A stretch of 64,000 nt of DNA from Clytia hemisphaerica. Its lineage: Eukaryota > Cnidaria > Hydrozoa > Leptothecata > Clytiidae. Positions 967-45,057 of this stretch are shown here, piece after piece. A program made the translations under genes and the position numbers. Every line of letters begins with the position of its first letter. The first letter of the stretch is position 1. The notes under the pieces are model-generated. The model did not search any database and was not told where the DNA came from. It saw nothing but the letters and a program-made list of their open reading frames with translations. The stretch covers positions 186,001-250,000 of the forward strand of contig CACVBU010000391.1 in assembly GCA_902728285.1 (NCBI GenBank), read 5' to 3'.

Positions 967-2766
967 TTAATTATCTCTTTGAAATTTCACATCCAGTTTA
1001 ACATAGTGACTGCCATAACTATATCTCGGGGTTAGAGAGTTACCGTAAATGTCTTTAGAGTTGATCTCACTTTGCGCTCTTCCTGTTATAACTGCCAACG
1101 TATCATAACCGATTGTGTCTTTTTCGTAGAAAGCTCCGGTAAAAATCACTTTATCATTGTTTGTTGTAAAAGCCTCATATTCGTAAAACTGCTTATATGT
1201 TGTTATCGTATATTTCCTGCCTTCAGTTGTAGATAATAATTGGCTGCTTGTTCTCTTCCAGATTTGAAAATTTTGATTATCTGGACGGTTTCCAATTTTG
1301 ACATTTAATGAGCCGTAGACTTCACAACTATTTCCAGAATCGGAGTGACAGTAAATGAAGATCTTGATGGTCATCTTAAAACGGATTACTGAAATGAATG
1401 AATATTTGAATGAATCTCTTTTGATCAGATAAAAACTGACTACTACAAGTCGACTTCAATCTCAAAACATTAACTCTTGTAGACGGAAATAGCCGGAGTT
1501 CTCTAAAAACTTGTTTTTGAACTAACTTCATCTTAGAAATGTTAATAAAACTCTACTTACACTGTAATTGTGTTGTTGTAGGGGTCGTCGTCGTTGTAGT
1601 CGTTGTTGTAGTCGGGTTGGTCGTCGTTGTTGGTTTCGGAATGGTCGTTGTTGTTGTTGGGGTGGTCGTTGTTGTAGTCAGAGTGGTTGTCGTTGTTGTT
1701 GTAGGGGTCGTTGTTGTAGTCGGGGTGGTCGTTGTAGTAGTCGGGTGGGCTGTCGTTGTAGTAGTCGGAGTGGTTGTCGTTGTAGTAGTTGGAGTGGTTG
1801 TCGTTGTTGTGCGGGTGGTCGTCGTTTTCGTAGTCGTAGGGGTGATCGTCGTTGTCGGGTTAGTCATAGTTTTAGTTGGTGTGCTCTCTTTCGGTGACGC
1901 TTTTTCCTCTTCGTGACAAATCTCATCTGCAGACAGAAACGCGATCTAAAATACAGATAAATAGTGAAAGGCCTTTACTCACACAAAAGAAATGATACAC
2001 GTACATGGGGTCAGCCCAGGTCTAGGTCCCAGACAAAAAACAGGTCCCCCAAAGATTTAGGTTCCCCCAAGTATTAAAAGTTTTCTAAGCAGCCCCCATT
2101 CCTATACCTAGTATAAAATAGTTGTTGATTTAAATTGTTTTTAGGAAAATCACATTTATATTCCATTGACTATAGTTAATTCAAGATGGTAGACACAAGT
2201 GAAAACAAACAGAATCAATAGACTGTAAAATGAAAGGTTTTTGGATGAAAATGTGGTGATTTAAAGAAAAATAATTTAGAAGAAATAATCAGCCCCCAGT
2301 CATGTTATTGAAATTCCAGCTCCTCTCCAAACATATCAGGTCCCCCCAAATATTTGGCTGTATTTTAGCTCCCAGTTTTCGTCTGCAATTTTTTGGGTGT
2401 AATCCCCCCAAATGTCAGGGGGGTTGACGCTATGGCGTAATTGTGAGAAATACAAATACAAGAGCTATATCGACTTGGAAATAACAAATCTTGAAATACC
2501 TGTCGTAAGAGTAGCCCTCTTTCGATTTTGTTTCTTTGATCGATTTTATCCAAACAATAACACATCTTATCTTCAGTGTAGAAAGGTGTTTTCTTTGAAC
2601 GTTGACATTGTAAAGTACATTCAACTGTTGAACGTGCAGATTCAACAAATATGGCGTTGTCTAAAGACGTCTGAACTTGTTCACTTTCATATAGGTAGGC
2701 AAGTGATTTTCCAACAAAGAATTGCTTCAAACTAGCAACCAAAAGTAGAAGTTTCACATTATTCAT
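967..2766 (-). CDS. Array locus A: secreted PAN-like head, Thr/Pro stalk and E-[VLI]-Y-G domain (possibly damaged)
   Basis: Three exons on the minus strand. Head exon 2766-2500 (89 codons): signal peptide (hydrophobic run after MNNVK), then a short PAN-like module containing the C-x(3)-C and C-x-C pairs also seen in loci B and H; donor CAG|GTATTT, phase 0. Stalk exon ends at 1561 with donor T|GTAAGT, phase 1, and is almost only Thr and Pro. Terminal exon 1388-967 (acceptor TTTCAG, phase 1, 140 codons) carries the unassigned domain with two cysteines, EVYG and the IGNR...NQ core. The best-looking stalk acceptor (CTGCAG, exon start 1926) would put the stalk out of frame and meet a stop. A weaker AG giving exon start 1906 keeps the frame (about 344 residues). 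The locus is therefore either alternatively spliced or decaying. A C-rich inverted-repeat element fills the first intron. The product is probably extracellular; its role is unknown. Confidence 0.7.
2004..2434 (+). mobile_element. C-rich inverted-repeat element, family CATAGCGTCAGCC (copy 1)
   Basis: Bounded by a CATGGGGTCAGCC start and a GGTTGACGCTATGG end, degenerate versions of the inverted ends of the better copy at 11351. The interior contains repeated CCCCC runs on the plus strand separated by AT-rich spacers. It lies in the first intron of locus A. Confidence 0.65.
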
Positions 2767-2819
2767 GTTTTCTGCTTCAAACCTTCGACTAATGCATTTT
2801 TATGTTCGACCTGAGTATA

Positions 2820-3243
2820 ATAAGTTCACGTTATTTCATAAGAACATCCAATTTTTTAAAGCCTTAGTTAGGATGGTCTTAACTTTTTGAGTTTTTTTAA
2901 CATGTTCTTATTTTCACCATTTTGTGAGTCTTTTCTCCATTTTCCTAGAGTTTAAAATGTTCTTAACTTATTCTTAATAATTTAGTTATTTAAACCTTGT
3001 TCTTATGTTCTTATATAGATTATTTTTATAAAAAATCAAAATGCGTTTGCAAAATGAACGTTTTCATTTACACTAAATACACGACTTTTTATAAGTTAAA
3101 TTTTATAAGAACACGAGGCCAAAACCTAAGAACAGATTAAGAACCATCCTGAGCTTCAGATTTCAGAAATCACTTAAAAAGTACTGATTTTAACAGATTG
3201 TAAACCCATTTGAAGTTCTGGTTCTTATAAAAATAGCGTGTCG
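2820..3243. mobile_element. ACACG/TTATAAGAA inverted-repeat element, diverged copy
   Basis: Starts near CACGTTATTTCATAAGAACATCC and ends TTCTTATAAAAATAGCGTGT, matching the ends of the copies at 22791 and 45262, with many internal AAGAAC/GTTCTT motifs. Confidence 0.45.
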
Positions 3244-3299
3244 ATTTCCACACAACATTATTGGGTAATTATACCTTATCGGCCAAAACTTAGCCGGCC

Positions 3300-5351: not shown

Positions 5352-8063
5352 TCAAGGGTGCACTGTAAGGGTCGAAATGAGCAAAGACGAGAAAAAGTGC
5401 TAAGGGTGTAAAATTTGTAAAATCTGACCATATTTTGCCTAAAAAGGGAAAAAAAAAATAAAAAAAACGCACTGTAAGGGTCTAACTTAAAAGGCTTAAT
5501 TTTGGGTCGTTTTTGAACCTAGTGATATTCTATTGTCAGAAAGAACAACACGCGCTATATTTTGTTTCACTGTAATTTTTTCAAAGTGATTCAGACCTCA
5601 ATAGAAAGTCGCTCTAGCTTGAATTACCAGCTTAGGCTAAATCGGAGGGAGCTTTAGAACGATAAAAACTTAAATAAAAACATTCATTCGCGAATTCCAA
5701 AAATAAAATTTTGAAGATCCTGATACAAATATTCAATATAGCCCGTTCTAATATTCGTGACAATTTCGAATAATCATAAAAGCATGTTTAGTGGAAATTT
5801 CAAAGCTTCATGACATTCGAATGAGTCTAAACCCCTTAACACATTGAAAACTCGAACAAGCAAGAGAATTTGTCTAGAGGGGGACAGGGGGACAAAAAAT
5901 TGCTCGAATTACAGAAGTTCGAATTACAGAAAGTGTTTTATTAAAGTTCCTAGGGAAAATTGACGGTGATTTTGTTCGAATTATAGAAATATTCGCATAA
6001 AATAGAAGTTCGAATTAGTGAGAGTGTAATGTATGACATGGCCTTATTTTGTTGTTTTACAATAATCATTAATCATATTCATACTTGACTCCCACTTTAA
6101 CATAATCTTCATAATCACTTTGAAATGTTTCAGTTTTATACACATTAAATGCATCTTTAGCGTAAACATAAGCATTAGATTTGCCAGTAATCAAACCAAC
6201 GGTGTCGACATCCCAAGTGTCTACTTCATAGACAGCTCCAATAATGTCGATCATATCACGGCTGTTAATAAAGTCATCATATTCATAAAAACTATGGACC
6301 ATGTTTATATGATGTTCCATGTATTCCGTAAGGTCAATGTAATTATCGTCTGTTTTTTGCCAGAGCTGCACTCCTTGGTTAGTGGATCTTTCTCCAATGT
6401 TCAACTTTAGTTGCCCATACAATTCACAAGACGATCCAGCATCGTCGTAACAATAGATTGTTAGACGTACATTCAATTTGAACCGTTTCACTGTTAAAAT
6501 AAAAGAAAACGAGTCAATTAGTTAAAAGTCTTATGATATTGTATGTCAATTTACCTGAAAAACAAGAAAACCGTCATGTTTTGGAAGGTTGTGGTACGTC
6601 CACTCGTTGGATCGCTTTTTGAATAAGTTATTGGACTTCTCAACAGTGACAAACTTGTCTTAATTGGATCAAGTCCAGAAAATGGAAAGCCAGAGGTTAG
6701 AAAAGNTCAAGGGTGCACTGTAAGGGTCGAAATGAGCAAAGACGAGAAAAAGTGCTAAGGGTGTAAAATTTGTAAAATCTGACCATATTTTGCCTAAAAA
6801 GGGAAAAAAAAAATAAAAAAAACGCACTGTAAGGGTCTAACTTAAAAGGCTTAATTTTGGGTCGTTTTTGAACCTAGTGATATTCTATTGTCAGAAAGAA
6901 CAACACGCGCTATATTTTGTTTCACTGTAATTTTTTCAAAGTGATTCAGACCTCAATAGAAAGTCGCTCTAGCTTGAATTACCAGCTTAGGCTAAATCGG
7001 AGGGAGCTTTAGAACGATAAAAACTTAAATAAAAACGTTCATTCGCGAATTCCAAAAACAAAATTTTGAAGATCCTGATACAAATATTCAATATAGCCCG
7101 TTCTAATATTCGTGACAATTTCGAATAATCATAAAAGCATGTTTAGTGGAAATTTCAAAGCTTCATGACATTCGAATGAGTATCTAACACATTGAAAACT
7201 CGAATTAGCGAGAGAATTTGTCGAGAGGGGGACAGGGGGGACAAAAAATTGTTCGAATTACAGAAGTTAGAATTACAGAAAGTGTTTTATTAAAGTTCCT
7301 AGGGAAAATTGACGGTGATTTTGTTCGAATTATAGAAATATTCACATAAAATAGAAGTTCGAATTAGTGAGAGTGTACTGTATGACATGGCCTTATTTTG
7401 TTGTTTTACAATAATCATTAATCATATTCATACTTGACTCCCACTTTAACATAATCTTCATAATCACTTTGAAATGTTTCAGTTTTATACATATTAAATG
7501 CATCTTTAGCGTAAACATAAGCATTAGATTTGCCAGTAATCAAACCAACGGTGTCGACATCCCAAGTGTCTACTTCATAGACAGCCCCAATAATGTCGAT
7601 CATATCACGGCTGTTAATAAAGTCATCATATTCATAAAAACTATGGACCATGTTTATATGATGTTCCATGTATTCCGTAAGGTCAATGTAATTATCGTCT
7701 GTCTTTTGCCAGAGCTGCACTCCTTGGTTAGTGGATCTTTCTCCAATGTTCAACTTTAGTTGCCCATACAATTCACAAGACGATCCAGCATCGTCGTAAC
7801 AATAGATTGTTAGACGTACATTCAATTTGAACCGTTTCACTGTTAAAATAAAAGAAAACGAGTCAATTAGTTAAAAATGGACTCTGTCTTATGATATTGC
7901 ATGTCAATTTACCTGAAAAACAAGAAAACCGTCATGTTTTGGATGATTGTGGTACGTCCACTCGTTGGATGGCTTTTTGAATAAGTTATTGGACTTCTCA
8001 ACAGTGACAAACTTGTCTTAATTGGATCAAGTCCAGAAAATGGAAAGCCAGAGGTTAGAAAAG
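5352..8063 (+). repeat. 1.36-kb direct duplication with a single N at the junction
   Basis: Copy 1 is 5352-6705 and copy 2 is 6707-8063, each running from TCAAGGGTGCACTG to GAGGTTAGAAAAG. They differ by scattered substitutions and a few small indels. The base between them (6706) is an unresolved N. Each copy contains one terminal exon of the locus B type. Confidence 0.92.
6069..6490 (-). CDS. Orphan terminal exon B1 (duplicate of locus B terminal domain)
   Basis: Minus-strand exon with acceptor TTTTAACAG (phase 1) and 140 codons ending in a stop, encoding the array's C-terminal domain. It differs from the terminal exon of locus B at one residue that I noticed (Val versus Met in the N-[VM]-Y-K-T stretch). 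It lies within a 1.36-kb direct repeat whose second copy holds the real locus B exon, and it has no head or stalk exon of its own. It is either an allelic or assembly duplicate (a single N marks the repeat junction at 6706) or an alternative last exon for locus B, which the splice phase would allow. Confidence 0.75.
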
Positions 8064-8990
8064 TGCGCGTCTAATCTCTGTAAAAAACCCCTTGTTTCTT
8101 TATTAAATGCACTTACGTTGTGGCTGTGTTGTAGGAGCCAAAGTAGTTGTTGTGGTGGTTGTTGTTGTCGTAGTAGTTGTTGTAGGAGTGGTCGTAGTTG
8201 TCGTCGGGGTGGTCGTAGTTGTCGTTGGGGTGGTCGTAGTTGTTGTCGGGGTGGTCGTAGTTGTCGTCGGGGTGGTCGTAGTTGTTGTCGGGGTGGTCGT
8301 TGTTGTCGTTGGGGTGGTCGTAGTTGTCGTTGGTGTGGTCGTTGTTGTTGTCGGGGTGGTCGTTGTTGTTGTCGGAGTAGTTGTTGTCGTTGTTGGGGTA
8401 GTCGTCGTCGTTGTCGGGGTAGTCGTTGTCGTTGTCGGGGTAGTCGTTGTTGTGGTAGTAGTGGTCGTTGTCGTGGGAGTCGTTGTCGTTGGAGGTGGTG
8501 TTGTTATCATGAAAGCGATCAACTCTGTAGGATCTGTTATGATGTTGTCATCCTGAGTTGAAAACTCAACCTGAAATATGAAATGGATGTTATTCAGTTC
8601 AATTTTCAACAGGCAAAATGATACAGATGAGAGAGTCATAAAATTTAAGTCTTCAAACTCTAAACTGCAAGTTGTAAAGTAAAATTTTTACGGAATTTAT
8701 TTGACCAAAGATTTTATTTTTGCTAGAGTTAAATTTACCTTTGCATAAGATACACCATACTCAAGTTCGACACCATTTTCGATTTTATCCAAGCAATAAC
8801 ACATCTTATCTTCAGTGTAGAAAGGTGTTTTCTTTAAACGTTGACATTGTAAAGTACATTCAACTGTTGAACGTGCAGATTCAACAAATGTGGCGTTGTC
8901 TACAGACGTCTGAACTTGTTCACTTTCATAAAGAACACAATTTATTCTTACTGGCAATGTAAGCGAAAATACTAAGACGAATATAAACAT
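7418..8990 (-). CDS. Array locus B: secreted PAN-like head, long Thr stalk and E-[VLI]-Y-G domain
   Basis: The cleanest three-exon model. Head exon 8990-8739 (84 codons): signal peptide with hydrophobic FIFVLVFSLTL, then the short PAN-like module (C-x(3)-C, later C-x-C), donor AAG|GTAAAT, phase 0. Stalk exon 8570-8117 (acceptor TTTCAG; donor C|GTAAGT, phase 1) starts VEFSTQDD and then runs as repeated Pro-Thr(6) heptads, a 21-bp minisatellite; at about 150 residues it is the longest stalk in the array. Terminal exon 7839-7418 (acceptor TTTTAACAG, 140 codons) has YCYDDAG, CELYG and IGER...NQ. The total is about 375 residues. There is no transmembrane segment after the signal, so it is probably a secreted, heavily O-glycosylated protein with an N-terminal ligand-binding-type head. 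Function unknown. Confidence 0.85.
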
Positions 8991-9188
8991 TTTAGATCCC
9001 TTTTTATTTGACCTATGGTTTAATATCGAACTTGAAATAATGTTCTTTGGTTCAAATTTTTCACTTTGTCATATCTGTCATTTGTTTTTTAATTATTCTA
9101 AAAATATTTCAATGATTTTGTAATATTGAAAACTAAATAATTGATGATGTGTACGTCTCTAGTAGTAATATGGTTTTAAACAGGTACT

Positions 9189-14233: not shown

Positions 14234-15882
14234 TTAAGAGGACAGTGTGAATCTTATCATAATTTCGACATAATTTGATCCCTGTGTAAATCTTTCAGTT
14301 CTGTCTGTATTGTATATTTCATTTGCTCGTACGGCAGCGTTCGGTTTCCCTGTGATCGATCCCAGAAGATCATCGGAAGAAATTCGATCTTCTTCTTTAA
14401 ATTGACCCGAAAAAATGACGTCATCTTGACTTTGCGTAAAGGTCATATATTCCTGAAAAGAGTGTTGGGTGTCAATATTATGTCCACTCCATCTTTGTGT
14501 GTTGATAGCTTCATTTTCATTTCTTCGCCAAAGTTCGATGTTTTGATTTCCAGCACGATTGCCGATATTGACGTAAAGTTCACCATACACTTCACACGTA
14601 CTATCCAATTCATCCGAACAATAAATTTTGATTCTGACTTCCAAACGGAAATTTAACACTATATGGAAAGAAAAAAATGCCTTTTTGAAACTGGTTACAC
14701 TTTCACGGGATGCCTGTAATCAGTTAATTCTAGTTTAGACGGCCGACTCTCCTTCCTGCTCAGCCCTGCCTATTTCAAATGTTAGAGTATGCAAAAAGTG
14801 GGCAGAAAATTGACTGTTAAAATCATTACTTGAAATTAAAAGAAAGGCATTGCATAGACTTCAAAAGAGGCCCAACTTTCTCCTCACTATGGATAAACAG
14901 ACAGAGTTTAGCCTGTTTAGTGTGATAGAATCTTTTTCCTTTGCAAGAACAATTTTACAAGAACGACGAGGCTCGAAAACAACGAAAAATAAGAATAATT
15001 TAAGAACAAAGCTGACCCTGGGATTACTAAATTCAAAAGCAATAAAAAGTTAGAATTGAGGCTCAAAGTTCTTTAAAAAGATGAGAACAGCTTGTTCTTA
15101 TAAATAAGAGTGTATGATATCTGTACTGATTATACACTGGGCACGAGGTTGTAAAGATACGCACATGGAGGAGGCGTCGTAGTAGTAGTAGTTGTTGTTG
15201 TTGTTGTTGTGGTTGCTGTTGTTGTTGTTGTTGTTGGTGCTGCTGTGGTTGCTGTGGTTGTCATAGCTGCTGTAGTTGGAGTGTTTTGCTATGAAAGAAA
15301 AGATAGTATGCTTTTAATGATTAGTAGAAATTACTATGTGTTTTGTCCAAACTTAATTATATCTTGTTCCTTTTGAATGTTTGAATTTCTCTCTCATAAA
15401 AAGCTTTGTTTGTGTTGGTAGTGACATTGTACAGTTCAAATGTGAAGTTAGGACATAATTTAAATTGAAAGTCTTACTTCGTTTAGTTCACAATATATTT
15501 TCTCTTTTTGCTGTCTTCCATTGCTCTCTGTTCCTATGGTGTAATATCCATTGTTTCGTCTCCCTAACGCTAGCCAATCGTTGCAGTTGGTTGCCACTGT
15601 AGAGTGGTATACGGCGCCTGTCTGATCTTTCAATGCTCGATGCTCCCCATTGGTTGTTTTAAACATGACGTCATATAGATAACACGTTTGACCATTGAAT
15701 GCATAAGATAAACACTCAGGACTGTGGTCGCACATGCTAATACATTGTATGCCAAACTTTGAAGGTCTCCTAGTAAATGGTTGTTCAGATGCAAGGGTTT
15801 TTTCCTTTGCAATTAATTGGTAAATATTACTCGATCTTGCTGTGTTGAAGTTTATAATAATTAAGGTGATTAACAGTAACAT
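14234..15882 (-). CDS. Array locus C: secreted PAN plus fibrinogen-like fragment, Thr stalk and E-[VLI]-Y-G domain
   Basis: Three exons: head 15882-15478 (135 codons, donor GAA|GTAAGA, phase 0), stalk 15288-15165 (acceptor TTTCATAG, donor T|GTGCGT, phase 1), terminal 14658-14234 (acceptor CATATAG, phase 1). About 317 residues. Residues 1-17 form a signal peptide (MLLLITLIIINFNTA). Residues about 20-95 are a PAN/apple domain (IQCISMCDHSP...CLSYAF...TCYLYD). Residues about 98-135 resemble the N-terminal piece of a fibrinogen-like domain (NCNDW...GYYTIG...IYCELNE). The stalk is 41 residues of Thr, Ala and Pro. The terminal domain has CEVYG, NIGNR and the acidic loop KEED...SDDLLG. The fibrinogen-like part differs clearly from those of D, E and F although the PAN part matches them closely. 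It is the only member of this head type whose stalk is a separate exon. Confidence 0.87.
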
Positions 15883-18037: not shown

Positions 18038-20209
18038 TTATCCGTTAAGTGCAGCGTTGAATTCAAGTCTGAGGTGGATCTCAACACGATTTGAAAACTC
18101 TGTAAACGTTACATGATGGTCTTTGTTATAGATGTCAGCTGGGTGAACCTGAGCGTTCTGTCCTGCGATGTTTGCAAGGATCTCATCTGTACCTGGATTG
18201 TCGTATTCTTTGAATTGCCCAGTAAAAATGATTGTACCCGTCATACTCGACCGAAAGTCATAACTTTCTTGAAAGAGACTGTGTGCTGAATAAATAGACA
18301 TCAACCAGCCCTCGAAACTACTGTAAGGATTGGTTTGTTCTCGTCTCCAGATTTGAATGTTTTGATTAACAGCACGGTTTCCGATATTGACATTGAGGGA
18401 ACCGTAAACCTCACAGAAGCCGTCCCCCAAATCGCTATTACACCCTACCTTGATATTGATGTGCAATTTGTAGTGATACACTAGTGGAGGAAAAAATAGA
18501 TAACATAATTATACTCATTATCAAGACATTTGGAGAAGTATCATCGAAGTCTCAAATCTCAACGGGGTTAAAAAATCGAAAAATCTAGTTAAAAGGATTT
18601 TGGGATTTTTCGAATGGGGATCAAATCATATGTCAATTTCCCAGTGGGGCTAAAATTGTAGGGAAATTTTTCTACTGGGGATGGAATTTTGGCCGATTTT
18701 CCAAGTGGGGTGAGCGGGTCCCAGCACCAGCAACGGGTCTGTGACACTGAGATGCCATAATCCCCAAAATAGAGCACTCTTGTACAGTTTGATATTTTTG
18801 GACCTACCCCGCAGGTCCTTTAAATTAACTGATGTTCGTGTGTTCATGTGTTGGTTCATCTGCTACCAGCTTTTCTCGGGATTGGCTCCTTAGTTTTTTC
18901 TGATTTTTTGCTCAGTGATACAAAATGGTGATTCCCAAAAAGTGACGGAGCCTGATATTATGCTGGAAAAACCGGCTTTTAGCATTTTCTCGAGATTTCA
19001 TCATTTAGTTTTTCCTAATTTTTTGCACAAAGGTGCGTATTAGCAATGCCCATTAGTAATATCCAAAACATGGCCGAGTTCAATTTTGGAGAAAATCTTT
19101 TTCTGGTTGAAAATGTCGGAAATATGCCGGAAATTGCTGTTTTTGCTGATTTTCATTGGATTTTTTCCATGTCATTCGTTGTCACTATTAGCAACAATAC
19201 CATCGAGCATGTTTCAATTGTCAAAAAATGATTTTTGAAGCCTTTTTAAAAATCGCCGGAACAGCCAATTATCGCCGGAAAAACAGGTTTTCTTGAATTT
19301 CCCGAGCTGTACTTTATATTTTATCATGAAATTTTGGACACTGGTGCAAAATGGTAATACCTAAAATGTGACAAAGCCAGATTTTCAATAAGCATACTTT
19401 TCCGGCCGAATATATGCCAGAAAAAACGGTATTTTGGCATTTTTGGCGATTTCATTATTAGTTTTTGTTTCTTTGCACAGAGATGCGTATGAGCAATGCC
19501 AAAATCATGGCCGAGTACGATTTTAAAGAAAAATTTCTTTTCGGCCGAAAATGTCGGAAATATGCCGGAAATCGCCGTTTTCGCAAATTTTAATGACGGT
19601 TTGTTTTTTTAGTCCCTTTACATTTCATTTTTTACTTCCTTTTCTATTTCCATTCTATATTTATCATTAGGTAGGTCAATTTATGCATTTTGCTTGTTTA
19701 TACGTTATATTATTAAAATGTTCAAAAGTTGAAAAGAACTCACTAGGCTGTGGGGCTGCCGTTGGTACTGGTGTTGTGGTCGGTGGTGGTGTTGTATAAA
19801 CTTCTTGGTTTAGATAACAATAAATTTCTGTCTTTCGTTGCTGCCCATTAACCTCAGAACTCACGTAGTAGAATCCATTCCTCCTCTTGCCGAGTTGATG
19901 CCAAGTTTCACAACTGTCTGCCACTGTAGAATGGTATACGGCGCCTGTCTGATCTTTCAATGCTCGATGCTCCCCATTGGTTGTTTTAAACATGACGTCA
20001 TATAGATAACACGTTTGACCATTGAAGGCATACGATAAACATGCAGGACTGTGGTCGCACATGCTGATACATTGTATGCCAAACTTTGAAGGTCTCTTGG
20101 TGAATGGTTGTTCTGATGCAAGGGTTTTGTCCTTTGCAATTAATTGATAAATATTACTCGATCTTGCTGTGTTGAAGTTTATAGTAATTAACGCGATTAA
20201 CAGAAGCAT
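18038..20209 (-). CDS. Array locus D: secreted PAN plus fibrinogen-like fragment, short stalk and E-[VLI]-Y-G domain
   Basis: Two exons: head plus stalk 20209-19744 (donor A|GTGAGT, phase 1) and terminal 18480-18038 (acceptor TTCCTCCACTAG, phase 1). About 302 residues. It has a signal peptide of the same type as locus C (MLLLIALITINFNTARS), a PAN domain, a fibrinogen-like fragment (SCETWHQLG...GFYYV...IYCYLNQ) and only about 18 residues of Thr/Pro stalk fused to the head exon. The terminal domain keeps CEVYG, NIGNR and an acidic loop (KEYD...TDEILA), and has a longer first loop and C-terminal tail than its paralogues. The intron is about 1.26 kb and contains degenerate repeats. Extracellular; function unknown. 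Confidence 0.87.
18590..19590. repeat. CAGTGGGG fragment and internally duplicated ATGCCGGAAA repeat in locus D intron
   Basis: 18590-18775 holds CAGTGGGG-type blocks and GGGTCTGTGACAC, as in the element at 33192. 19025-19145 and 19475-19590 are diverged direct repeats sharing CATGGCCGAGT and AATGTCGGAAATATGCCGGA. Confidence 0.55.
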
Positions 20210-23204: not shown

Positions 23205-25167
23205 TCAAGCCCTTTCGAATATAACACTGATTTTCACATAACTTCTACTGTTTAAAAATTGTTCAGTTTTTAACGTGTTGTAAATATCGTTAGCTTGGAA
23301 GGAATTTCCGGTGATCTCTGCAATGGTTTTGTCACTAGCGATGGGGTGATAATCTTTGATGTGTCCGGTAAAAGTGACCTTGTCACTGCTCTCTGTGAAT
23401 TCTAAGTATTCTTGGAACTGATGATACTTTTCTTTTATAAACACCTCCCTTTTCCCACCTATTGAAATGCGATTAGCTTTTTGGACATTCCAAATTTCGA
23501 TGTCTTGATTTTCTTGACGATTTCCAACATTACATCTGACGACTCCATACGGGTAGCACGCCCATCTTATAAAGTTAATGTTATTGCAATAAAACGTGAT
23601 GCTGATCTTCATACGGAATATTATCACTAAAGATATAATAAATTTAAATACATTTTTAAGGCTTGGGAACACGAGAAGTTTTTTTCGCGTTGGTGCAATG
23701 CAACATGCTCCATCCCACCAACACAAGAAAAAAAGTGCTTGTCCCATGGTTTCTTTTTTTGTTTCATGGGAAAAAAAGTGAGGGAAATACCCAAAAAACA
23801 CACTGGGACAATGGAGAAAAATTGATTCCCAGGGGCAAAAGTGAGATTTCACTTTTATTGTTAGAAAGAAAAATGGGGTGGAGACACGAGAAAGCGTTCC
23901 AGGTTGGTGGGATGGATCATGTTGCATTGCACCAACGCGAAAAAAACTTCTCGTGTCCCAAAGCTATTATTAGGATCTTTTATTAATATCAAACTTTTCT
24001 CACTTCAGGACAATCAGTGGACAATTGGATAAGTATGGTTAGTGACCATCTTCCCTCCTAATCTATTTTCTATTTATCGAGGCAATTCTCATTCTTATAA
24101 TTCGAGTTGAAGTTGTTTTGTTTTTAAGAACTACAATGATGGCCATAATATTTGGCACAAAGGGAATTTCCCAGAATTTCCCAAGATTTTAAAACTGCAA
24201 ATATTTTTCAAGTGTTTTAACTTAGCGTTGGAAAATAGAGATTTAACTTTAAGTTTTAACCTGAGACTTAAAACTTTTACGAACTTAAGATCTGAGGATC
24301 CAAAAGCTTGTAAACGGCGCCACTAGCCTGAGAATTCAGCCTTTTGACCCCTCCCAAATCACAATATCCAATTGAATAATGCAGAAAGCCTGCAAATGTC
24401 ATTCTCGTCCAAACTTTAATTCTTTAAAATTCTAAAATACTCAGAAATGCCAATATATTTTGACCACCATTGTAGGTTTAGAAAATAAGATATTGACAGA
24501 AAGTCTATCCAGACTGCTTTTAATGTCGTTGAAAATCACGTTCCAATCACTTACATGACGGTGTTGTCGGGGCTAGTGTTGTCAGAACTAGTGTTGTGGG
24601 AACTAGTGTTGTGGGGGCTAGTGTCGTGGTTGGTGGTGTCGTTGTCAACATGTTTTCCATATTATTTTGTGAAGCTATGGTCGTTATTGTAGGAGGCACT
24701 GTTGTAAAAACTTCTTGGTTTAGATAGCAATAAATTTCTGCCTTTCGTTGCTGCCCATTAACCTCAGAACCCACATAGTAGAATCCATTCCTCCTCTTGC
24801 CAAGTTGATGCCAAGTTTCACAACTGTCTGCCACTGTAGAATGGTATACGGTGCCTGTCTGATCTTTCAATGCTCGATGCTCCCCATTGGTTGTTTTAAA
24901 CATGACGTCATATAGATAACACGTTTGACCATTGAATGCATACGATAAACATACAGGACTGTGGTCACACATGCTAATACATTGTATGCCAAACTTTGAA
25001 AGTCTCCTGGTGAATGGTCGTTCTGATGCAAGGGTTTTGTCCTTTGCAATTAATTGGTAAACATTGCTCGCTTTGACAACTTGAAGAAGTGCAGTCATGA
25101 ATAGAATGATTGGAAAATGATTCTTGAACCAATATAAAAGGGAGTCAACCTTTCGGATCCATATCAT
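23205..25167 (-). CDS. Array locus E: secreted PAN plus fibrinogen-like fragment, Thr/Pro stalk and divergent terminal domain
   Basis: Two exons: 25167-24555 (donor T|GTAAGT, phase 1) and 23626-23205 (acceptor ATATCTTTAG, phase 1). About 344 residues from the first ATG; an internal ATG before TALLQVVKA would give a more usual signal peptide, and locus F shares that segment. The PAN and fibrinogen-like parts are nearly identical to D and F. The stalk is about 50 residues with repeated TTLxPTTL units. The terminal domain is diverged: E-[VLI]-Y-G is replaced by YPYG, and the acidic loop is KDYH...SDKTIA. Five 20-bp repeats lie just upstream of the start, and an element with inverted repeats of about 60 bp lies in the intron just upstream of the terminal exon. 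The open frame runs upstream into that element, but the splice acceptor and homology limit the exon to 23626. Confidence 0.85.
23661..23965. mobile_element. Long inverted-repeat element in locus E intron
   Basis: About 60 bp at each end are inverted repeats with few mismatches (start TTGGGAACACGAGAAG, CGCGTTGGTGCAATGCAAC; end the reverse). It ends 34 bp upstream of the splice acceptor of the locus E terminal exon. The interior is low complexity. Confidence 0.82.
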
Positions 25168-30090: not shown

Positions 30091-32001
30091 TCATATTTTA
30101 TTGAAAGTGACACGAATTTCAACATAATCATTCGTACGACCAGGTTCGGTACTATAAACTCTTGGTAGTGTATGGTAATTTTCAAAAACATTCTGAGCAT
30201 GACAATATGAGTTAGATATCTTTGCTAATTTATGACTCTGTGAGTTACCCCAATCCCAAAAATAGCCATAGAATTCGATCTTATCGTTGCTCTGTGTGAA
30301 GGCTTCGTATTCTTGAAAGTTATACGGAACTTCAATGTTATACGTTACAGCTTTTGAAATTTCAATATAATTCGATGTTCCGACAGACCAAACAGGAATG
30401 TAAGTACTTTGTCCAATGCTGACTCTAAAAAAGCCGTATAGTTCACATGTGGGTCCGTCATCTTCTGTACAAGAAACTGAAATTCTTATTTGCATTCGAA
30501 AATCCAACACTGTTAGTAGAAAATAAAAGTTTAATGGTGTTAGAAGAAATCTTTTGTTATAGCACATTAATTCACTATGTCACATAATGTCTTAAAAGTC
30601 AGATCGATAGTATAAGATCATGTTCAGACGTTACGGTTCCTTATTATTCCGAAACGAAACGGTTCTGAAACAAATGTAAGCCAAAATTTGAAACGTCAAA
30701 AAAGAAGGCGTTACAAAGCAAAACAGATCGAAACGGTTTCGCTCGACTATTTTCATCGGAACGGAATTGCTTTGTTTTCTTGCTCCGAAACGCTCCGAAA
30801 CCAATATTAACACTCTCGATTCGTAACAGAAACCATACCGGACCGGAACGATACGAAACCGTAATGTCTGAACATGGTCTAAAAAGTGAGGTCTGAGACC
30901 ATGTTCAGACGTTACGGTTTCGTTACGCTCCGAAACGAAACAGTCTGAAACACTGAGTGAGCGTCAAAATTTAAAACGTCAAAGAAGAAGACGTTACAAA
31001 GTAAAACAGATCGAAACGGTTTCACTCCAAAAAAAAGCTCATATCCGTAACAAACACCATACCGGAGCGATGCGCAACCGTAACATCTGAACACAGTCTG
31101 AATAGCTCTATGAAAAGAATGACGAGCTTGCTAAAAGCATTGCAATTCCTAAATCGAATCATCAAATCATAATAGCGCGCGTTTCTTCAGTTGATTGTTC
31201 TATGTGACAATAGAATGTCCTCTTTAAAAAAACAGACCCTTGATTTAGAATGCTTTGATGTAGAAAATGCCGAGTTAGAAGAAAAACGAATGATCTTCAT
31301 TTCTAGAAAAGGAGGTCCTCCTTTTATATCCCCCCTCTTCCGCCATACTCCGAGCTTCCCAATTTTGGGGGTGACGAAAAGCACTTTAAAAGAAAAAGGA
31401 GACCCTTATCTTTTCAATGAGTCATGAGCGAGTTTCTCATTCCTTTTAGCGACACTTAACAGGTTCGAAATACAATTAATGAGCTAAATGGGAAATAAAT
31501 TATTCTAAAAGGCTTACGTGGTGGTGGCGTTGTTGTTGTTGTTGTTGTTGTTGTTGTGGTGGTGGTGGTCGGTGGTGGTGTTGTATAAACTTCTTGGTTT
31601 AGATAGCAATAAATTTCTGTCTTTCGTTGCTGCCCATTAACCTCCGAACCCACATAGTAGAATCCATTCCTCCTCTTGCCGAGTTGATGCCAAGTTTCAC
31701 AACTGTCTGCCACTGTAGAATGGTATACGGCGCCTGTCTGATCTTTCAATGCTCGATGCTCCCCATTGGTTGTTTTGAACATGACGTCATATAGATAACA
31801 CGTTTGACCATTGAAGGCATACGATAAACATACAGGACTGTGGTCGCACATGCTGATACATTGTATGTCAAACTTTGAAGGTCTCCTGGTGAATGGTTGT
31901 TCTGATGCGAGGGTTTCATCTTTTGCAATTAATTGGTAAACATTGCTTGCTTTGACAACTTGAAGAAGTGCAGTCATAAATAGAATGATTGGAAAATGCA
32001 T
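30091..32001 (-). CDS. Array locus F: secreted PAN plus fibrinogen-like fragment, Thr stalk and divergent terminal domain
   Basis: Two exons: 32001-31518 (donor C|GTAAGC, phase 1) and 30509-30091 (acceptor TTCTACTAACAG, phase 1). About 300 residues. The signal peptide (FPIILFMTALLQVVKA) is shared with locus E. The PAN and fibrinogen-like head is almost identical to D and E. A poly-Thr/Pro stalk of about 20 residues is fused to the head exon. The terminal domain keeps CELYG but lacks the NIGNR...NQ segment (it reads SIGQSTYIPVW), and the acidic loop has become WDWGNSQSHKLA, so a putative acidic site is lost. The intron of about 1 kb contains two copies of a CATGTTCAGACGTTACGG inverted-repeat element. 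The interval between this locus and locus E holds a CR1-type retrotransposon. Confidence 0.86.
30618..30880. mobile_element. CATGTTCAGACGTTACGG inverted-repeat element (copy 1)
   Basis: Ends ATGTTCAGACGTTACGG and CCGTAATGTCTGAACAT; interior rich in CGAAACGG. Lies in the locus F intron. Confidence 0.75.
30897..31099. mobile_element. CATGTTCAGACGTTACGG inverted-repeat element (copy 2)
   Basis: Ends ACCATGTTCAGACGTTACGG and CCGTAACATCTGAACACAG; it follows copy 1 after about 16 bp and shares its interior. Confidence 0.75.
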
Positions 32002-36757: not shown

Positions 36758-38046
36758 TCAGTCTTCACTGAACCTGATTTTGACTTCAACATAGTTGTTA
36801 TTCTGCCATTGCACTAGATGTCTAAATCCGGTATAGGCATACTTAGCTTCAGCATATTTCGTATTTGGTGAAACTCCAATGAATGCATACCCGTTTTGGT
36901 ATAAGGTTCCATGATAAGAAATCCTGTCATAACTATTTTTGAAATCAGGATTCTCGTAGAAAATCTTGTTGGTACCATCATAACTTGTTCCTTTGTGTTG
37001 GATAAATTTAGCTTGAGTTGATGCATATGACCATAATTTGACTCCTTGGTTATCAGTACGATTACCAATGTTGAAGTAGAGATCTCCATAGATAAGACAG
37101 CTCCCTGGGTTGTTGTTGCAAAAGATTCTGACTTCAATGTACAGTTTGAATGTCATAACTGTTAAAATAAAAAGCATATATATAAAAGGGGTTGTTAGTT
37201 GTGATTTAGAGCTGTCGTTGAAAGAGATTCTCAAACAGTAAAGTTCAAATTAGCAAGCACCTCACTAAAAACCGGGATTTTTCATCTCGTTTCTTAGTGA
37301 GTTCCACTTTGACGATTTTTGAAAAAAAGAAGCCTTTCAAGTGTTTTGACGCAAGTTCCCCTACTGCAAAGGCTTTCAAAAGTTTAAAATGTCGTCAAAA
37401 AATCGAATGTTTGGAGCCAAAAAACCTGGGCCCAAAACATTCGAAAAAGTCGCAAAGTTGAATTATAGGCTAACTTTAAATTAGCCGATCGTCAGTTTAA
37501 TGAACGGTCATCGGTTCATTAGCCTATATCGAAAGAAGAAAATGTAATTAGAGCGAGACTAAAATTAAGAACGTCTGATGTATTTCTTTCTTAATATACC
37601 TCGAAAACTGATCACTCGCCAAATTAAATCCCCGCAAAATTTAACAAAGAGAATATGTGAAAAAATCACAACTTTTTAGTATATTTTATGGTAATTTTCA
37701 CCCATTTCAGAGTTTCAAAATTTCCAATTCGCCAAATTAAATCCCCGCCCAATTTTACGAAATTGATCTATCGCCAAATTAAATCCACGCCAAAATTAAT
37801 CCACTTAAGGTAATTTCCATCTCGAAAGATCTTTGGGATCGAACTCTTCCATTCAATAGTGTTCATGCTTATAAGAAAACGTGCATAGTAGAAAAATATT
37901 TTGAAATTTCCAGTGCGATACTTACGTGGGGGCTGGGTTGTTGTTAGAGCGGTTGTCGTTGTCGGAGGCGGTGTTGTGATCGAGGAGGCGATCAATTCCC
38001 CAGGATTCGTTATAATAGTACTGTCATCTTGAGTTGAAAATTCAAT
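36758..38046 (-). CDS. Array locus G (partial): stalk and terminal-domain exons without a local head
   Basis: Stalk exon 38046-37926 (acceptor CTTCTTGCAG, phase 0; donor C|GTAAGT, phase 1) reads IEFSTQDDSTIIT..., homologous to the start of the locus B stalk, then about 15 Thr/Pro residues. Terminal exon 37158-36758 (acceptor TTTTAACAG, phase 1, 133 codons) has CLIYG and NIGNRTDNQG, but the acidic loop is gone (YQNGYAFIGVS). I found no PAN-like head between 38046 and the next terminal exon at 40329; that interval holds a 124-bp satellite array. Either the head exon was lost or these exons are spliced to the locus H head at 45 kb (phase 0 matches). Confidence 0.75.
37159..37925. other. Locus G intron
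   Basis: Contains CGCCAAATTAAATCCCCGC blocks (37618, 37732, 37772), a dispersed repeat. No exon seen. Confidence 0.5.
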
Positions 38047-39315: not shown

Positions 39316-40328
39316 AAATAAAGAAAAAATCAAAACTGTGTGACGTAATCCAAAGAAAACCCGCGAAAATTGTCCGTGGTTATACGAGCGTGTAATTTGT
39401 AAATTAAGTTTAGTTAGTTTTTTTCCGATGACAACGTTTATTCTCAAAAATGTCAAAAAGTAAAAAAAAAATATATTTTTCTGTTTTAAAACTCTTCAGT
39501 GATTGCCTTTCTATTATTTAAATTCTCAAATTCAATTTTGTTTAATTTTTCGCTACCGCGAGTCTGAATAGATTTAATCAAACAAACCAATCTTATCTTT
39601 TTCTTGGGTTGTCAAACTTGAATTATAAGGAGGATTGAAAAAAATACTAGCCATAGTGATACTTTTGTGAATATGACATTTATTTACTACAATTTCTGTT
39701 TTCAAATAAAAATGAAATCAGAAAGTATCAACAAAAAAAAGTCTAGCCAGACGAATTTCGCGAGATTATAAATTATCATATTAAATTAAAATATTATATT
39801 AAAAGTCATTATTTTTTGTGCCCAGTAGGGACTTGACTTTTAACCTGCTCTTTAAAGATTTTATCTGAAAAAGTATTCTTTTAATCTACTTAGTTTCTTT
39901 TACCTAAAAAGCTTAAAAATTAGCAATTATCGCCACAGTTATGAATTTTGAGGCACAGATTACTTTTTTTCTTTTTCAGGTTTCGTTCAAACGTTAGCCT
40001 CGTATTATTTACGACGTTGTTCTTATAAAAAAGTGTGTTATTTGGGAAATTTTGTTTTTGAATAACAATTTCCTAACTTTGTGGGATGCAAAGAGAAACA
40101 CCATTCTATGGGGTATACATTGTGGTACATTTACCCCTTACTTATCAAGTAACTTTTTCTTCATGAAAAGCTATTATTTTATACAAAATGACAGATTATT
40201 TAAAACTTAAACCTATTCATATTCATTGTCCATCGTGCTTCCTCGCTTGAACAATACATGTGGAGAAATTAGGAAGTTTATATAAAAAAAATAGTTTTAC
40301 TGTTTTTTTTTTGTTCCTTTCTTTAAGG
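39316..40328. other. Spacer between satellite and locus H terminal exon
   Basis: AT-rich, no exon-like segment. A TTCTTATAAAAAAGTGTGTT end of a dispersed element occurs at about 40020. Confidence 0.35.
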
Positions 40329-43300
40329 TTACTTCTCATATATGATTCGCACTTCAACCCAATCGCTACCATATTTTTTTTTTCGACTGTGGTGGACCCC
40401 GAACACGTCTCTAGCATAGATATAGACATTACTAAATGTAGCAATTGTGTCATCCCCTGTTATGTCTGATTCTTTGATAGTACCAGAGATACTGATTTTA
40501 TCGTTGCTGGTTTGAAAGGCTTCGTATTCTTGAAATGACTTAGTGACACTGTAGTATTTTGGTGTCCTCTCATTAATTTCGACGGTGCTGCTTCCTGATA
40601 CCGGACCCCATATAGCGATATTTTGATTCGACGCTCTGTTTCCAATATTAAGTTTAAGTGATCCATAAATCTCACACGTGCTCCCTGCATCATCGTAGCA
40701 GTAGATGCTGATACGAATACTCATAGTGTAGGTTTGTACTAAAATCAAAATACGAAGGGCTTCAAAGTTGTTTGAGTTATAATTTCGAGTAATAGAGACT
40801 GGCTTATAAAGGCCGGTCTCCACTTGCGCGCGCTTCAATCGCACTTTTCGAGCAAAGCTTCAACGCTATTGGTAAAAAAAAAGAAACAATTCCATTGGCG
40901 AGATCTGACGTAACGGTTGAAAAAACTTTTTTTCGAGTGCGCGCTACATTTTCATGACATAATCTTTTTGCAAGCAAAAAGGATTGAATCCAAAAAGTGC
41001 CGCAATTAGAGACCGGTCTTAAAGGTATTGTTAACTACAATCCCGGGCAAAAGTCTGTAGAATTCTCAAAAGTTCCCCAGAATAAATATGGTCACTAAGT
41101 CACTAAAGAAAATTCACCAAACTGGCAGCACAAGTGGCTTATGGTAAAGTAAACTGACAACGTTAATCGTTGTGATTTTTGACTCGTTGGCGAAATTTCA
41201 AAAAAACAAACTAGGCTATATTAGGCTATTTTTGACCTTATTGGTCAAAGCTTAGGTCAAAGAGCAATTTTCTTTTCTTTCTGCTGAACCAATAAGCTCA
41301 ATACACTTCTATCGACTTCAAAAGAAAATGACGATTTCAAAATGAAACAAGACGACTTAAAGTCGAAAATTTCGCATAATATTTGAACATCAACGACGAA
41401 GACGCGTGAAACGTGACTCCTGCAGCATTATGGATTTTGAATGAAGCGTTACACAAAATATACACATTGTAGTACACAAAGGTCGTAGATACCCTGTTTT
41501 CTTATGAAAAATCTGAATAAAAACAAAAAGATTCCTAAAACATGCGACTAAAAAATTCCTTTTTATAAGCGTAAAAAAGATCTTTTAATTGGGTTCAGAA
41601 TAAATCAGAGAACTGCAATATACTTGAGAAAAATAATTTTAAAATTTTTTGAAAATGAAGAAAAAAAAAGAACTTTCCATTCTTTGATGCCAGAGACTTC
41701 ATTTTGTGCACCACCCTCAAAATTATTGGGCTTTTCCCGAAAAAATTTGAATATTGCAGAATATTGTAGGGGGGGGGGTTGGAGGATATAAATTTTTTTT
41801 GAAATTTACCCTGTGACTTTTGACCCACAGACAGCAGGTCTAACCCCCCGTACAGCAGGTCTAACTCTCTGACAAACATCAGTTGACTCCATGGACAATC
41901 AAAACTACCCTAAAACAGAGCAAAATTACCCCAAACAGAGCAAGTTTACCCATCCACCGGACAAGGCAAATTTTGTAGATTTTTCATTAACCCCCCTCCC
42001 TGGACACTATATTCTCTACCCCCCCCCCCATGTATAGGCATTTTCTGGCAGAGGCCATTAAAGGCAAAAAGCAGTTGAGCTCAAGCTTCTGAACTAGAAA
42101 ATGGCAGGGTAAAATCTAGCCAACTTTAAGCTTTAAATAAATAATACTCGTTGAGATTAAAATTTTCCCAAATTTCAACACAAAAATCCATATAAAAATA
42201 TATTAACTTAAGGATACAGACTTCGGTCAAGATATAATATGGGGACTTATTTACCACCTGTCACTCAAATTTTCCCACCACATACTAATTGACTAAACCT
42301 CACTAAAAGTGATGCAATTATTTTCAATTTTCAATTATTTTCTGATGCTATAATAGACCTTTAAAATTAATTATTTCTAGGTTGACCGTAAATCTTTCAA
42401 AATCATAAAATAAATGTTTACACACCAGTGAAAGTAGTAAGTGCTAAAAACAGTAAAAGAATCAATATTATATTTATACGTAATTGATTAATGGCCCTTC
42501 TAGAAAATCACAACAAAGAATCCTTTATGCTCTAACTGCATCCCATTAACACAAACCTTCCCCAACCTCTTGTTGGTTATCCCGGGGTGAGATTCCAAAA
42601 AAGTATCAAGAATCTTAGTGCGGAAATGGGAATCTCATACAAAACAACGGTACCACTGGAGTTTTTAATGATTCAAAATGAAAATCCAGATTGGCAAAAG
42701 AGGTATCAAGATCGATGAAGTTTGATTAAAGCACAATTAGTTTGATTTATTACCATTCTTTTTACACTCTGATGGCTTATTAGTAGACCCACGATAAAGC
42801 TTAAAGAGCAGGCCAATATCTATCATCCCATCGACCAAGCGATGTCAATCGAACTGTTTGATTACTGAACCAAATCCAACAGTCATCGAACCAATAAATT
42901 CCGGTTAGTTTGATTGATGTACGATGTGTTTGATTGAGCTGTTGCGCTAGCAATAACTAGAATCATTTAAGCTACAAAAACACTGATTGGATTTAATCGA
43001 ACTGCAATGTAAGTAATCAAACTTTAATCAAACATCAAACTGAAGATTTTCTGGCAAAGTTCTATTACTGTTAAATTAAGTTCGATAATCGAACACCTAT
43101 CGTTCGATTTCGTTCGATGTGTTCAATTACCAAAATCGGTTTAATTGATCATCATCGCCTGGCATCGGCGAGGAAAAGCTGGAACCTTTACTTAAACCAA
43201 ACTCATCGAACACCAATCAAACAATCAAACTTCATCAGATAAAAAACTGTCATCAAACTTATAGGTATAATCAAACTAATCAAAAAATTTTCTTACCAAA

Positions 43301-44143
43301 TTAGGCTCAGTAATCAAACAGCTAAATCGTTCGATTTCGTTGGATAGCTCGACAGTTCGATTACGGAAATAATTGCTGAATTTCAATTGACATGATGATA
43401 TTTCTAGGAAATATATACATGGAAAAACTTGCTAAACCAGACTGTTTGTCACAACTGGTTAATATTTAACACATAACTATCTGGTGAAAAAAGGAAAAAA
43501 AGATCATACCTGTGCTGTTTGTAGTTTCAGTAAAGAAGAGGGTTTTATGTGTGAGTGTTGTTGTTGTGTAAAATTAACTCTTTTTATACTACTCACTGAG
43601 CATTATCAATTTATTGGTGCATTCACTAACTACACAAACATAAAATACTTAGTAGTAAACGAATAATAAACCTCTAAATACTCTACAAAAGACCAGAAAA
43701 CATGATAAAAATTTATACATCTCAAGTTTCAAAAGCATGCGTGCAATCAAGCAGCCATTAAAAAATTATCATGATGAAGATAGATGTTTACAAAGGCTTG
43801 GTTACACTTCTTGCACTAGCGTATTTTAATTATTAAGAAAAGCGCTGTTTTTTATCTTTGTGAGTGAGTCCACTTTTAGAACATTGGCCGTAGTACGCCC
43901 GCAGCCAAACGCCCACGCCATAATTTACGCCCAAAAAATTTTCTCGCCACACACACACACACACACACACACATAGAAAGACTATCGTAATACTTTCGCT
44001 ATGCGAAATTAATAAGGAATTACATAGACCTATACCCGACATTGGTTTGCTTGAAATTTTAAATTAGAATTTACTCACGTTGTGGCTGAGTTGTAGGGGT
44101 GACAGTCGTCGTCGCTGTTGTTGTTGTTGTTGTTGTTGTTGAT

Positions 44144-44174
<31 letters not shown>

Positions 44175-45057
44175 TTGGGGATGTTGTTGGACTAGGATGT
44201 TGAACTTGCCTCTCTTCGTACGAGAATTCAGCCTGAAAAGTTTAAAATTGTATTACCACAAAATCATGAGAAAAGTTTTTTGGCTGACATTTGAAATGTC
44301 GAGTTAGCCTAAGATATGTTCCCTTCACACCTCCATGGAAGTGGGGGATAGATTTGTGGACCCTCTCAAACTTTTATTCGAATCTTTCTTTAACTCGAAT
44401 TGATTTTTAGTACCCGTCAAGGGGGATACTTCTGTTTTCAAAATGCTTTCTATAATTCGAACCTCCAAGTAATTCTAATTAGCGAAAGACAACTAAAGAG
44501 TCCATACACTCCCTTCTCACAGACCCGGTAGAATTTTTTCAGCCAGTGGGGATAAAAATAACGGACTGAAACTCGATGGGGATTGATATTCCCATATTCT
44601 CTTGTTTAGTCAGGAAATTCAGTGGGGATGGGAAAAATAGCATAATATTTTGCAGTGATGATAGCTTTATTTGACTATTTTCAGTGGGGACAAAAATTGG
44701 AGTATAATTTTCCACAGGGGACGATATTTTGGCCATTTTTTCCAGTGGGAAGGCCTTGCTTAAATTTTAATGGTAGAAAACATTGTTTACTTTTTTATAA
44801 ATCAGTCCATTTTTAACGTCCTCAGTATAAACAGAATCTTGAACTTTATCCAAACAATAACATTTCTTATCTTCAGTGTAGAAAGGTGTTTTCTTTAAAC
44901 GTTGACATTGGAAAGTACATTCAACTGCTGAACGTGCAAATTCAACAAATGTGGCGTTGTCTACAGACGTCTGAACTTGGTCACTTTTATAAAGACAACA
45001 AAATCCTGTCGTCCATAGTTTAAATAATACCAGTAGGTGACAGTCAAAATAATTCAT
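40329..45057 (-). CDS. Array locus H: secreted PAN-like head, Thr stalk and E-[VLI]-Y-G domain
   Basis: Three exons: head 45057-44791 (89 codons, donor AAA|GTAAAC, phase 0), stalk 44232-44079 (acceptor CTTTTCAG, donor C|GTGAGT, phase 1) and terminal 40738-40329 (acceptor TTGATTTTAG, phase 1). About 276 residues. The head is the short PAN-like type, close to B and A (TSVDNATFVE, C-x(3)-C, C-x-C-L-D-K). The stalk begins AEFSYEERQVQHPSP, then Thr runs. The terminal domain is the most consensus-like member: YCYDDAG, CEIYG, NIGNRASNQN and acidic loop KESD...GDDTIA. The last intron (about 3.3 kb) is the longest in the array and contains several repeat elements, including one with GACCGGTCT ends just upstream of the terminal exon. 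Confidence 0.85.
40808..41023. mobile_element. GACCGGTCTC inverted-repeat element in locus H intron
   Basis: Ends AAAGGCCGGTCTCCACTTGCG and its approximate inverse TAGAGACCGGTCTT; internal inverted GCACTTTT/AAAAAGTGC. Starts about 70 bp upstream of the terminal exon. Confidence 0.6.
41727..42057. mobile_element. TGGGCTCTTCCAGAAA family element, degenerate copy
   Basis: Begins TGGGCTTTTCCCGAAAA, contains CCGGACAAGGCAAATTTTG as in the 52831 copy, C/G runs, and ends TTTTCTGGCAGAGGCCA. Confidence 0.55.
42700..43390. repeat. Stretch built from ATCGAAC/ATCAAAC motifs
   Basis: Many dispersed short words such as AATCAAAC, ATCGAAC, GTTCGATT and GTTTGATT on both strands within 700 bp. Not strictly periodic; origin unclear. 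It lies in the last intron of locus H. Confidence 0.5.
43951..43972 (+). repeat. (CA)n microsatellite
   Basis: About eleven CA units in the locus H intron. Confidence 0.9.
44519..44757. repeat. CAGTGGGG fragment in locus H first intron
   Basis: Five CAGTGGGG-like blocks and an ACAGACCCGG start, homologous to an arm of the 33192 element, in the intron between head and stalk exons of locus H. Confidence 0.6.

Follow-up and report, generated by a model that had tools for sequence, protein, structure and literature searches.

Tandem head-stalk genes of Clytia hemisphaerica encode a putative cryptic Cry37-like C2 domain at their C-terminal end

Vertebrate perforin follows the domain order MACPF-EGF-C2. 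Among cnidarians, a passage of PMC6222686 describes the MACPF toxins of sea anemones as being without a membrane-attaching C2 domain. In Bacillus thuringiensis, the small crystal protein Cry37Aa1 is reported in a section of PMC9865532 to lie in an operon with Cry23Aa, and excerpts of two further sources present Cry37Aa as similar in structure to Cry34Ab1 (PMC7387505, PMC4229197), which the second presents as the bridge from the aegerolysin family to Cry37. Here we describe a 64,000-nucleotide stretch of the Clytia hemisphaerica genome (C276:186001-250000 of the 417 Mb searched, hereafter the window) that carries eight co-oriented loci, G1 to G8, on its minus strand, from 967 (the G1 stop) to 45057 (the G8 ATG). 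Their predicted proteins combine a head, a Thr-rich stalk and a terminal domain that can be related by fold to the bacterial protein.

The preliminary description of this array had left the terminal domain unassigned, and this no longer holds, as both fold prediction and structure search assign it. The domain is predicted to form a C2 beta-sandwich over its whole length, and its closest solved relative is Cry37Aa1 (Xpp37Aa1) of B. thuringiensis (PDB 4rhz chain B). Similarity to Cry37/Xpp37 in sequence and structure exceeds that to other C2 domains, and Cry37/Xpp37 is identified as a homologue on this basis. The modelled terminal domain is best described as a cryptic Cry37-like C2 domain, which gives a name to a domain missed by Pfam and NCBIfam scans. 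Matches in these scans to WCOB (0.029), NAGLU_N (0.21), FlgH (0.0078) and others were set aside as apparent chance matches.

Searches for further relatives returned little. A viral fold search (BFVD) gave no match at E 0.001. For bacterial relatives, one C8 tail was run by tblastn against plasmids (E up to 10), a search insensitive to 20% identity, and matched nothing, and the same tail, with the same insensitivity, gave 13 pattern stretches in genome_contigs, none of which was confirmed. The aegerolysin family does not appear among the 50 VIA matches listed, which excludes nothing. No description of this family turned up among the papers listed by literature searches, several of which had many more matches than appeared in the lists, so print may hold one; text searches found no mention of Cry37 in PMC4179158 or of PAN, apple, fibrinogen and WSC in PMC4169000, and passages of PMC2386466 hold nothing on the terminal domain.

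A related domain is found beside pore-former exons elsewhere in this genome. Four further loci were examined, and at three of them (C915, C780 and C160, also named L037, L038 and L039) a MACPF exon, a tail exon, a Cys-rich TSP-like exon and a C2-like exon follow each other on one strand. The MACPF exon of C780 matches PF01823 at E 4.2e-10, and its counterparts stand at 95.6% in C915 and, in two pieces, at 58% and 38% in C160; the TSP-like exon was named by eye, the TSP1-type profile reaching only E 0.2-0.3. At all three loci the junction that leads into the C2-like exon reads in the DNA as phase 1 on both sides, and these exons and G8 match with E values between 1.5e-7 and 1.1e-5. MACPF was seen only at these three loci; the array models (PAN/WSC-class heads, stalk and tail) are without it. 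The Clytia MACPF loci appear to carry a C2 domain in disguise, unlike the sea-anemone toxins as described. Elsewhere in the genome, ETX_MTX2, which we take to be the class of Cry23Aa-type pore formers, has three matches over the curated cut-off, L034 (C453:442936), L035 (C394:684165) and L036 (C394:665781), on contigs other than those of the arrays.

Within the window, the terminal exons match one another by tblastn at E ~1e-7 to 1e-34 (self and duplicate matches excluded), so the repetition of the loci is not due to chance. Exon borders were set from reading frame and splice signals and the models were then spliced; all are in frame, with zero internal stops. A phase-1 AG acceptor is present at 9 of 9 terminal exons and a phase-1 donor at every stalk (or head and stalk) exon. 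The genes with type B heads (G1, G2 and G8) are built of three exons, one each for head, stalk and terminal domain, separated by introns of phase 0 and phase 1. G3 shares this layout of three exons, and in G4, G5 and G6 a single exon carries both head and stalk. N-terminal signal peptides were assigned by eye. The features are as follows.

967..1388, minus strand: G1 terminal exon, C2-like domain (in-frame model, phase-1 acceptor, alignment A3)
1561..1945, minus strand: G1 stalk exon, Thr-rich (spliced model, stalk composition)
2500..2766, minus strand: G1 head exon, type B, hydrophobic N-terminus (spliced model)
6069..6490, minus strand: G2 terminal exon, distal copy T2a (alignment, spliced model, tandem duplicate)
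7418..7839, minus strand: G2 terminal exon, proximal copy T2b (alignment, spliced model)
8117..8570, minus strand: G2 stalk exon, 131-residue Thr-rich stalk (spliced model, stalk composition)
8739..8990, minus strand: G2 head exon, type B, mature part structure-modelled (spliced model)
14234..14658, minus strand: G3 terminal exon, C2-like domain structure-modelled (alignment, spliced model)
15165..15288, minus strand: G3 stalk exon (spliced model, stalk composition)
15478..15882, minus strand: G3 head exon, type A, a mosaic that is partly G4-6-like and partly C925-like (spliced model, comparison)
18038..18480, minus strand: G4 terminal exon (alignment, spliced model, P0005 identical)
19744..20209, minus strand: G4 head exon, type A, with short stalk (PAN_1 E 6.7e-4, under cut-off; spliced model)
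23205..23626, minus strand: G5 terminal exon (alignment, spliced model, P0006 identical)
24555..25098, minus strand: G5 head exon, type A, with stalk (spliced model, P0006)
30091..30509, minus strand: G6 terminal exon, with partial loss of the acidic loops (alignment, spliced model)
31518..32001, minus strand: G6 head exon, type A, with stalk (spliced model)
36758..37158, minus strand: G7 terminal exon, acidic loops lost (alignment, spliced model, P0002 identical)
37926..38046, minus strand: G7 stalk exon, no head found upstream (spliced model, P0002)
40329..40738, minus strand: G8 terminal exon (alignment, spliced model)
44079..44232, minus strand: G8 stalk exon (spliced model, stalk composition)
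44791..45057, minus strand: G8 head exon, type B (spliced model)

The eight same-orientation loci in 44 kb that the preliminary description reported are therefore borne out by in-frame models, with the amendment that the array has nine terminal exons, not eight, since that of G2 is doubled. Its two copies share 99% protein identity and lie in a tandem duplication of ~1.36 kb (5352-8063, DNA identity 97.4%), which could be a recent event or an assembly effect. The layout of head, stalk and terminal exon, claimed for each locus, is present in seven of the eight. G7 is the exception: seven head queries gave no tblastn match for its head, and none was seen by eye in 38.07-40.3 kb. The annotated Clytia protein P0002 (UniRef A0A7M5WW32), which matches the G7 stalk and terminal exons, likewise begins at the stalk. 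A 124-bp tandem repeat array occupies 38390-39317, between the G7 stalk and G8, where the G7 head would be expected. Two other Clytia proteins agree with the models: P0005 (UniRef A0A7M5WVG7) equals G4, at 100% over the query, and P0006 (NCBI and UniRef) corresponds to G5, its terminal domain at 100% by BLAST and the remainder by side-by-side reading, with a start at a Met upstream of that of our model.

The PAN-type head and Thr/Pro stalk given for all loci hold in part. There are two head types. Type A (G3-G6) is PAN-like, joined to a fragment that by eye resembles the start of a fibrinogen domain. The type A heads scanned (G3, G4, G5 and C925, with G6 left out) match PAN_1 at E 3e-4 to 2e-3, with 18.5-21.0 bits against a cut-off of 21.4, and contain no complete Fibrinogen_C domain by profile scan. 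Type B heads (G1, G2 and G8) are predicted to adopt a fold of the PAN/apple/WSC class; their assignment as plain PAN was dropped, as they fit only this broader class. On the opposite strand, 2.1-2.6 kb left of the window, the frame L033:7405-7929 (+) combines PAN and Fibrinogen_C (Fibrinogen_C E 1.7e-14; PAN_1 4.5e-4, under cut-off). With borders set by hand, the stalks of the window span 15 to 131 residues, with 27-81% Thr and 57-100% Thr, Pro and Ser together; that of G2 is 81% Thr over 131 residues, and that of G4 is minimal, barely a stalk.

Acidic loops are the candidate calcium ligands of the terminal domain. They were compared in a 23-row alignment that includes the near copies G2a/G2b and C8b/C285 and omits three C197 pieces, the L033 relic, C915, C780, C160 and C791. 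Among 136 well-filled columns (mean acidic share 0.13), the six richest in acidic residues include columns 19, 31, 103, 105 and 112, which would fall in C2 loops 1 and 3. All five positions are kept in 16 of the 23 rows and four in two others (one, P0003, cut short), with three remaining in G6, one in G5 and in P0004, and none in G7 and C8f. The positions are thus mostly kept jointly or lost jointly, the pattern expected of a metal site, and the alignment to Cry37Aa1 shows the same acidic-loop pattern. Acidic-loop loss is common to G7 and P0004, its relative from the ENA database. Calcium-dependent membrane binding by the terminal domain is the mechanism that we favour.

Heads and tails have diverged to very different degrees, as seen in their synonymous (dS) and nonsynonymous (dN) divergence (heads were compared after removal of 20 codons and over no more than 110). 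Among G4-G6, the heads have dS 0.09-0.11 and dN ~0.02, and the terminal domains dS 2.5 or saturated and dN 0.65-0.81; among G1, G2 and G8, head dS is 0.16-0.29 against a tail dS of at least 1.8. Among the type A genes, blastn aligns the head segment, with 93-96% identity over 240-429 nt, besides two short and weaker stretches. The C925 head stands at dS of at least 2.5 from those of G4-G6. The G3 head is a mosaic of the two: its first 240 nt are 83-100% identical to G4-G6, and beyond them identity falls to 47-57%, while reaching 70-87% to C925. We take this switch as direct evidence that recombination occurred inside the G3 head exon, and gene conversion is our reading of its mode. Recombination thus appears to homogenise the heads while the tails diverge. 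The earlier head-stalk-effector interpretation gains evolutionary support here, with heads much more alike than tails, and such a contrast within one array of a laboratory model animal offers a clear case in which to examine how gene conversion and diversification act on the recognition proteins of invertebrates.

Searches of the genome with the terminal domain gave 26 distinct matches on 10 contigs at E <=0.001, the weakest near that limit, nine of them in the window and 17 outside (C925, C480, C8, C285, C197, C915, C780, C160 and C791). On C480, C8, C285 and C925, a same-strand head-like exon lies upstream of 11 of 11 terminal exons. No such exon was found upstream of the C2-like exons of C197 and C791. 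These exons (L031 on C197; L040:2630-2881 (-) on C791) are more divergent, without a PAN/WSC head found, and in the one frame scanned with Pfam no known domain was recognised upstream of that on C791. Among the loci beyond the window, a stalk that counts as Thr-rich was seen in C8f, C925 and the L033 relic alone, so by that measure the stalk is not family-wide. The near-identical copies on C285 and C8 may be allelic. In a tree from which G2b and C285 were dropped, and in which 5 of 18 inner branches are strongly supported, C8 and C480 (all with B heads) stand apart from C276 and C925, and type A heads are confined to the latter side. Left of the window, a decayed terminal domain with a stop (L033:4232-4474 (-)) lies beside a type B head (L033:5294-5476 (-)), and the C8 cluster contains a type B head-like exon with no terminal exon assigned (L024:1297-1479 (-)).

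In the protein databases the only matches were three Clytia proteins and, from ENA contigs, three short relatives; a protein search with an X-padded profile yielded nothing beyond these. The lineage-specific character proposed in the preliminary description is therefore plausible, although a word-based search may miss distant homologues. The ENA proteins match G1 at 72%, G3 at 66% and G7 at 66%, and the next-best window members at 45, 44 and 32%; G1 with P0001 and G7 with P0004 are paired with strong tree support. If the ENA contigs come from another species, as we suppose, the separation of these paralogues would predate the species split.

The window also holds other elements. Two reverse-transcriptase fragments occur, one inside the array (26573-28235; RVT_1 E 2.2e-17 for 26576-27292) and one to its right (49805-50812; RVT_1 E 5.8e-12 for 49808-50812). 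Dispersed repeat pieces at 9192-9490 and 22798-23117 share 88-95% identity. Further right of the array, at 59421-63804 (+), lie exons resembling an ABC transporter, ABCB7-like by eye, with ABC_membrane at E 6.9e-5, under cut-off, for 60377-60679.

Taken together, we hold it somewhat more probable than not that the array encodes secreted, mostly bivalent adaptors, in which the head binds a common partner, the stalk acts as a spacer and the C2 tail binds membranes. The gene models, the predicted fold, the genomic spread, the exon order at the MACPF loci, the conserved acidic positions, the contrast between heads and tails and the mosaic head are observed; we infer secretion, glycosylation, calcium and lipid binding, the head ligand and the biological role. 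The head, whether PAN with a fibrinogen-start fragment or of the PAN/WSC class, would attach to a partner shared by all heads of its type. That partner is probably a protein or glycan of mucus, matrix or the cell surface, and the Thr-rich, presumably O-glycosylated stalk would space the head from the C-terminal C2 domain. In most copies this domain would bind membranes via calcium held by the acidic loops, membrane binding being suggested by the C2 fold, closest to Cry37Aa1, and by its occurrence beside MACPF exons in the same genome; copies in which the loops were lost jointly (all in G7, most in G5 and part in G6) would bind otherwise. The array may thus have arisen when perforin-type membrane-targeting domains were joined to recognition heads by phase-1 exon shuffling. 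Diversification of the C2 domains would go along with recombination, most simply gene conversion, that keeps heads similar: strongly so in G4-G6, in G3 for its PAN part, and to a lesser degree in type B. The role would most likely be surface or mucosal defence.

Several observations weigh against this interpretation. PF00168, the Pfam C2 family, matches none of the nine window members at E up to 10 (filters drop most matches >0.1), so the terminal domain is not filed as a member of it. By E value, Foldseek places ordinary C2 domains first and Cry37Aa1 tenth, and the window-only profile A3 does not retrieve Cry37Aa1 at E up to 10. Profile A9 also matches AfAgo-N (E 0.013 and 0.014), apparently by chance, which makes E values near 0.01 weak. 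Profiles A6 and A9 moreover leave out rows with degenerate loops: A6 omits G2b, G5, G6, G7, C8f, C285, P0003 and P0004, and A9 the same rows plus C8e and P0001, with one of the near pair C915/C780; A8 retains degenerate loops and omits only G2b and C285. As for the acidic positions, the aligned rows are related, with near copies among them, and the columns were picked after conservation was seen. Their mapping to calcium ligands assumes a type II C2 topology, a weak synaptotagmin-7 alignment places loop 1 elsewhere, and the first loop-3 position is Glu, not Asp, in 18 of 23 rows. The MACPF-linked copy of C915 is only 21-32% identical to array-type members, and the link between MACPF and C2 comes from exon order and phase, not from a transcript. 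Finally, the whole G3 head differs from those of G4-G6 by dS 0.60-0.72, and type B heads have dN 0.15-0.23, with dN/dS of ~0.65-1.04 in three pairs, and are thus not strictly conserved.

Other explanations fit some of these data. Exon replacement by unequal crossing-over, recent and not followed by ongoing conversion, would also make heads alike, with the diversity of the tails being non-adaptive; the data show recombination and not its mode, and tail dN/dS is <1 wherever dS is computable, so this stays a genuine if minority possibility, even though whole-exon replacement alone would not produce a G3 head that switches similarity inside its exon. The tail could instead serve protein-protein recognition, as does the C2 domain at the N-terminal end of Notch ligands; the array would then work in adhesion or allorecognition and not in membrane binding. 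We regard this as unlikely, given that the acidic loops are kept in 16 of 23 rows and recur in the Cry37Aa1 alignment, and that three loci place a related module after MACPF exons.

Two further proposals appear less likely still. As venom or nematocyst components, the tails would assist a pore-former, the part proposed for Cry37Aa in its pairing with Cry23Aa; the identity of the closest solved relative agrees with this, as do the three ETX_MTX2 matches and MACPF-C2-like loci of Clytia, but the former lie on other contigs (C453 and C394) and the contribution of Cry37Aa to toxicity is disputed. In a passage of PMC7387505, the binding of Cry23Aa to midgut membranes does not depend on Cry37Aa, and the component not necessary for toxicity is Cry37Aa by title and context, the subject being missing from that passage; a section of PMC9865532 reports both as toxic when tested individually. 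Equally improbable to us is a structural mucus or glue whose Thr-rich stalks gel and whose end domains cross-link. The extreme Thr content of the G2 stalk is in its favour, but stalks start from 15 residues, are seldom Thr-rich outside the window, and it is the end domains that the family shares. Returning to the adaptor reading, a broader version of it, which we put forward as doubtful, is that an unnamed hydrozoan Cry37-like C2 module, which bacterial insecticidal crystal proteins share, targets both MACPF pore-formers and a separate, diversified head-stalk-C2 set. That set would recognise membranes in a variable way, gene conversion keeping its heads similar, and its members could be opsonins, for instance, or competitors of the pore-formers on the same membranes.

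The array resembles several known systems without coinciding with any. Cry37Aa1 shares 20% identity with the terminal domain in the structural alignment and is a single-domain bacterial protein, whereas the Clytia domain is a C-terminal module combined with head and stalk. With C2 domains of the synaptotagmin/cPLA2 type (PF00168) it shares the predicted fold, probably the acidic-loop positions and a weak match to synaptotagmin-7 (E 0.23), but E-x-Y-G replaces the D-P-Y motif typical of that type, and a Cys pair flanks loop 1 in all nine window copies. Type A heads are similar to PAN and fibrinogen-related domain (FReD) proteins in joining PAN to a segment that by eye is like the first FReD segment, after which the FReD stops and the stalk and C2-like tail follow. 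By their Thr, Pro and Ser content the stalks may be mucin-like, with presumed O-glycosylation. The order found in vertebrate perforin recurs at the Clytia MACPF loci, which place a TSP-like exon before C2, while the array genes are without MACPF. The candidate Cry37-like C2 domain would in this way link three settings, namely a bacterial binary-toxin subunit, cnidarian MACPF loci and a tandem array of putatively secreted proteins.

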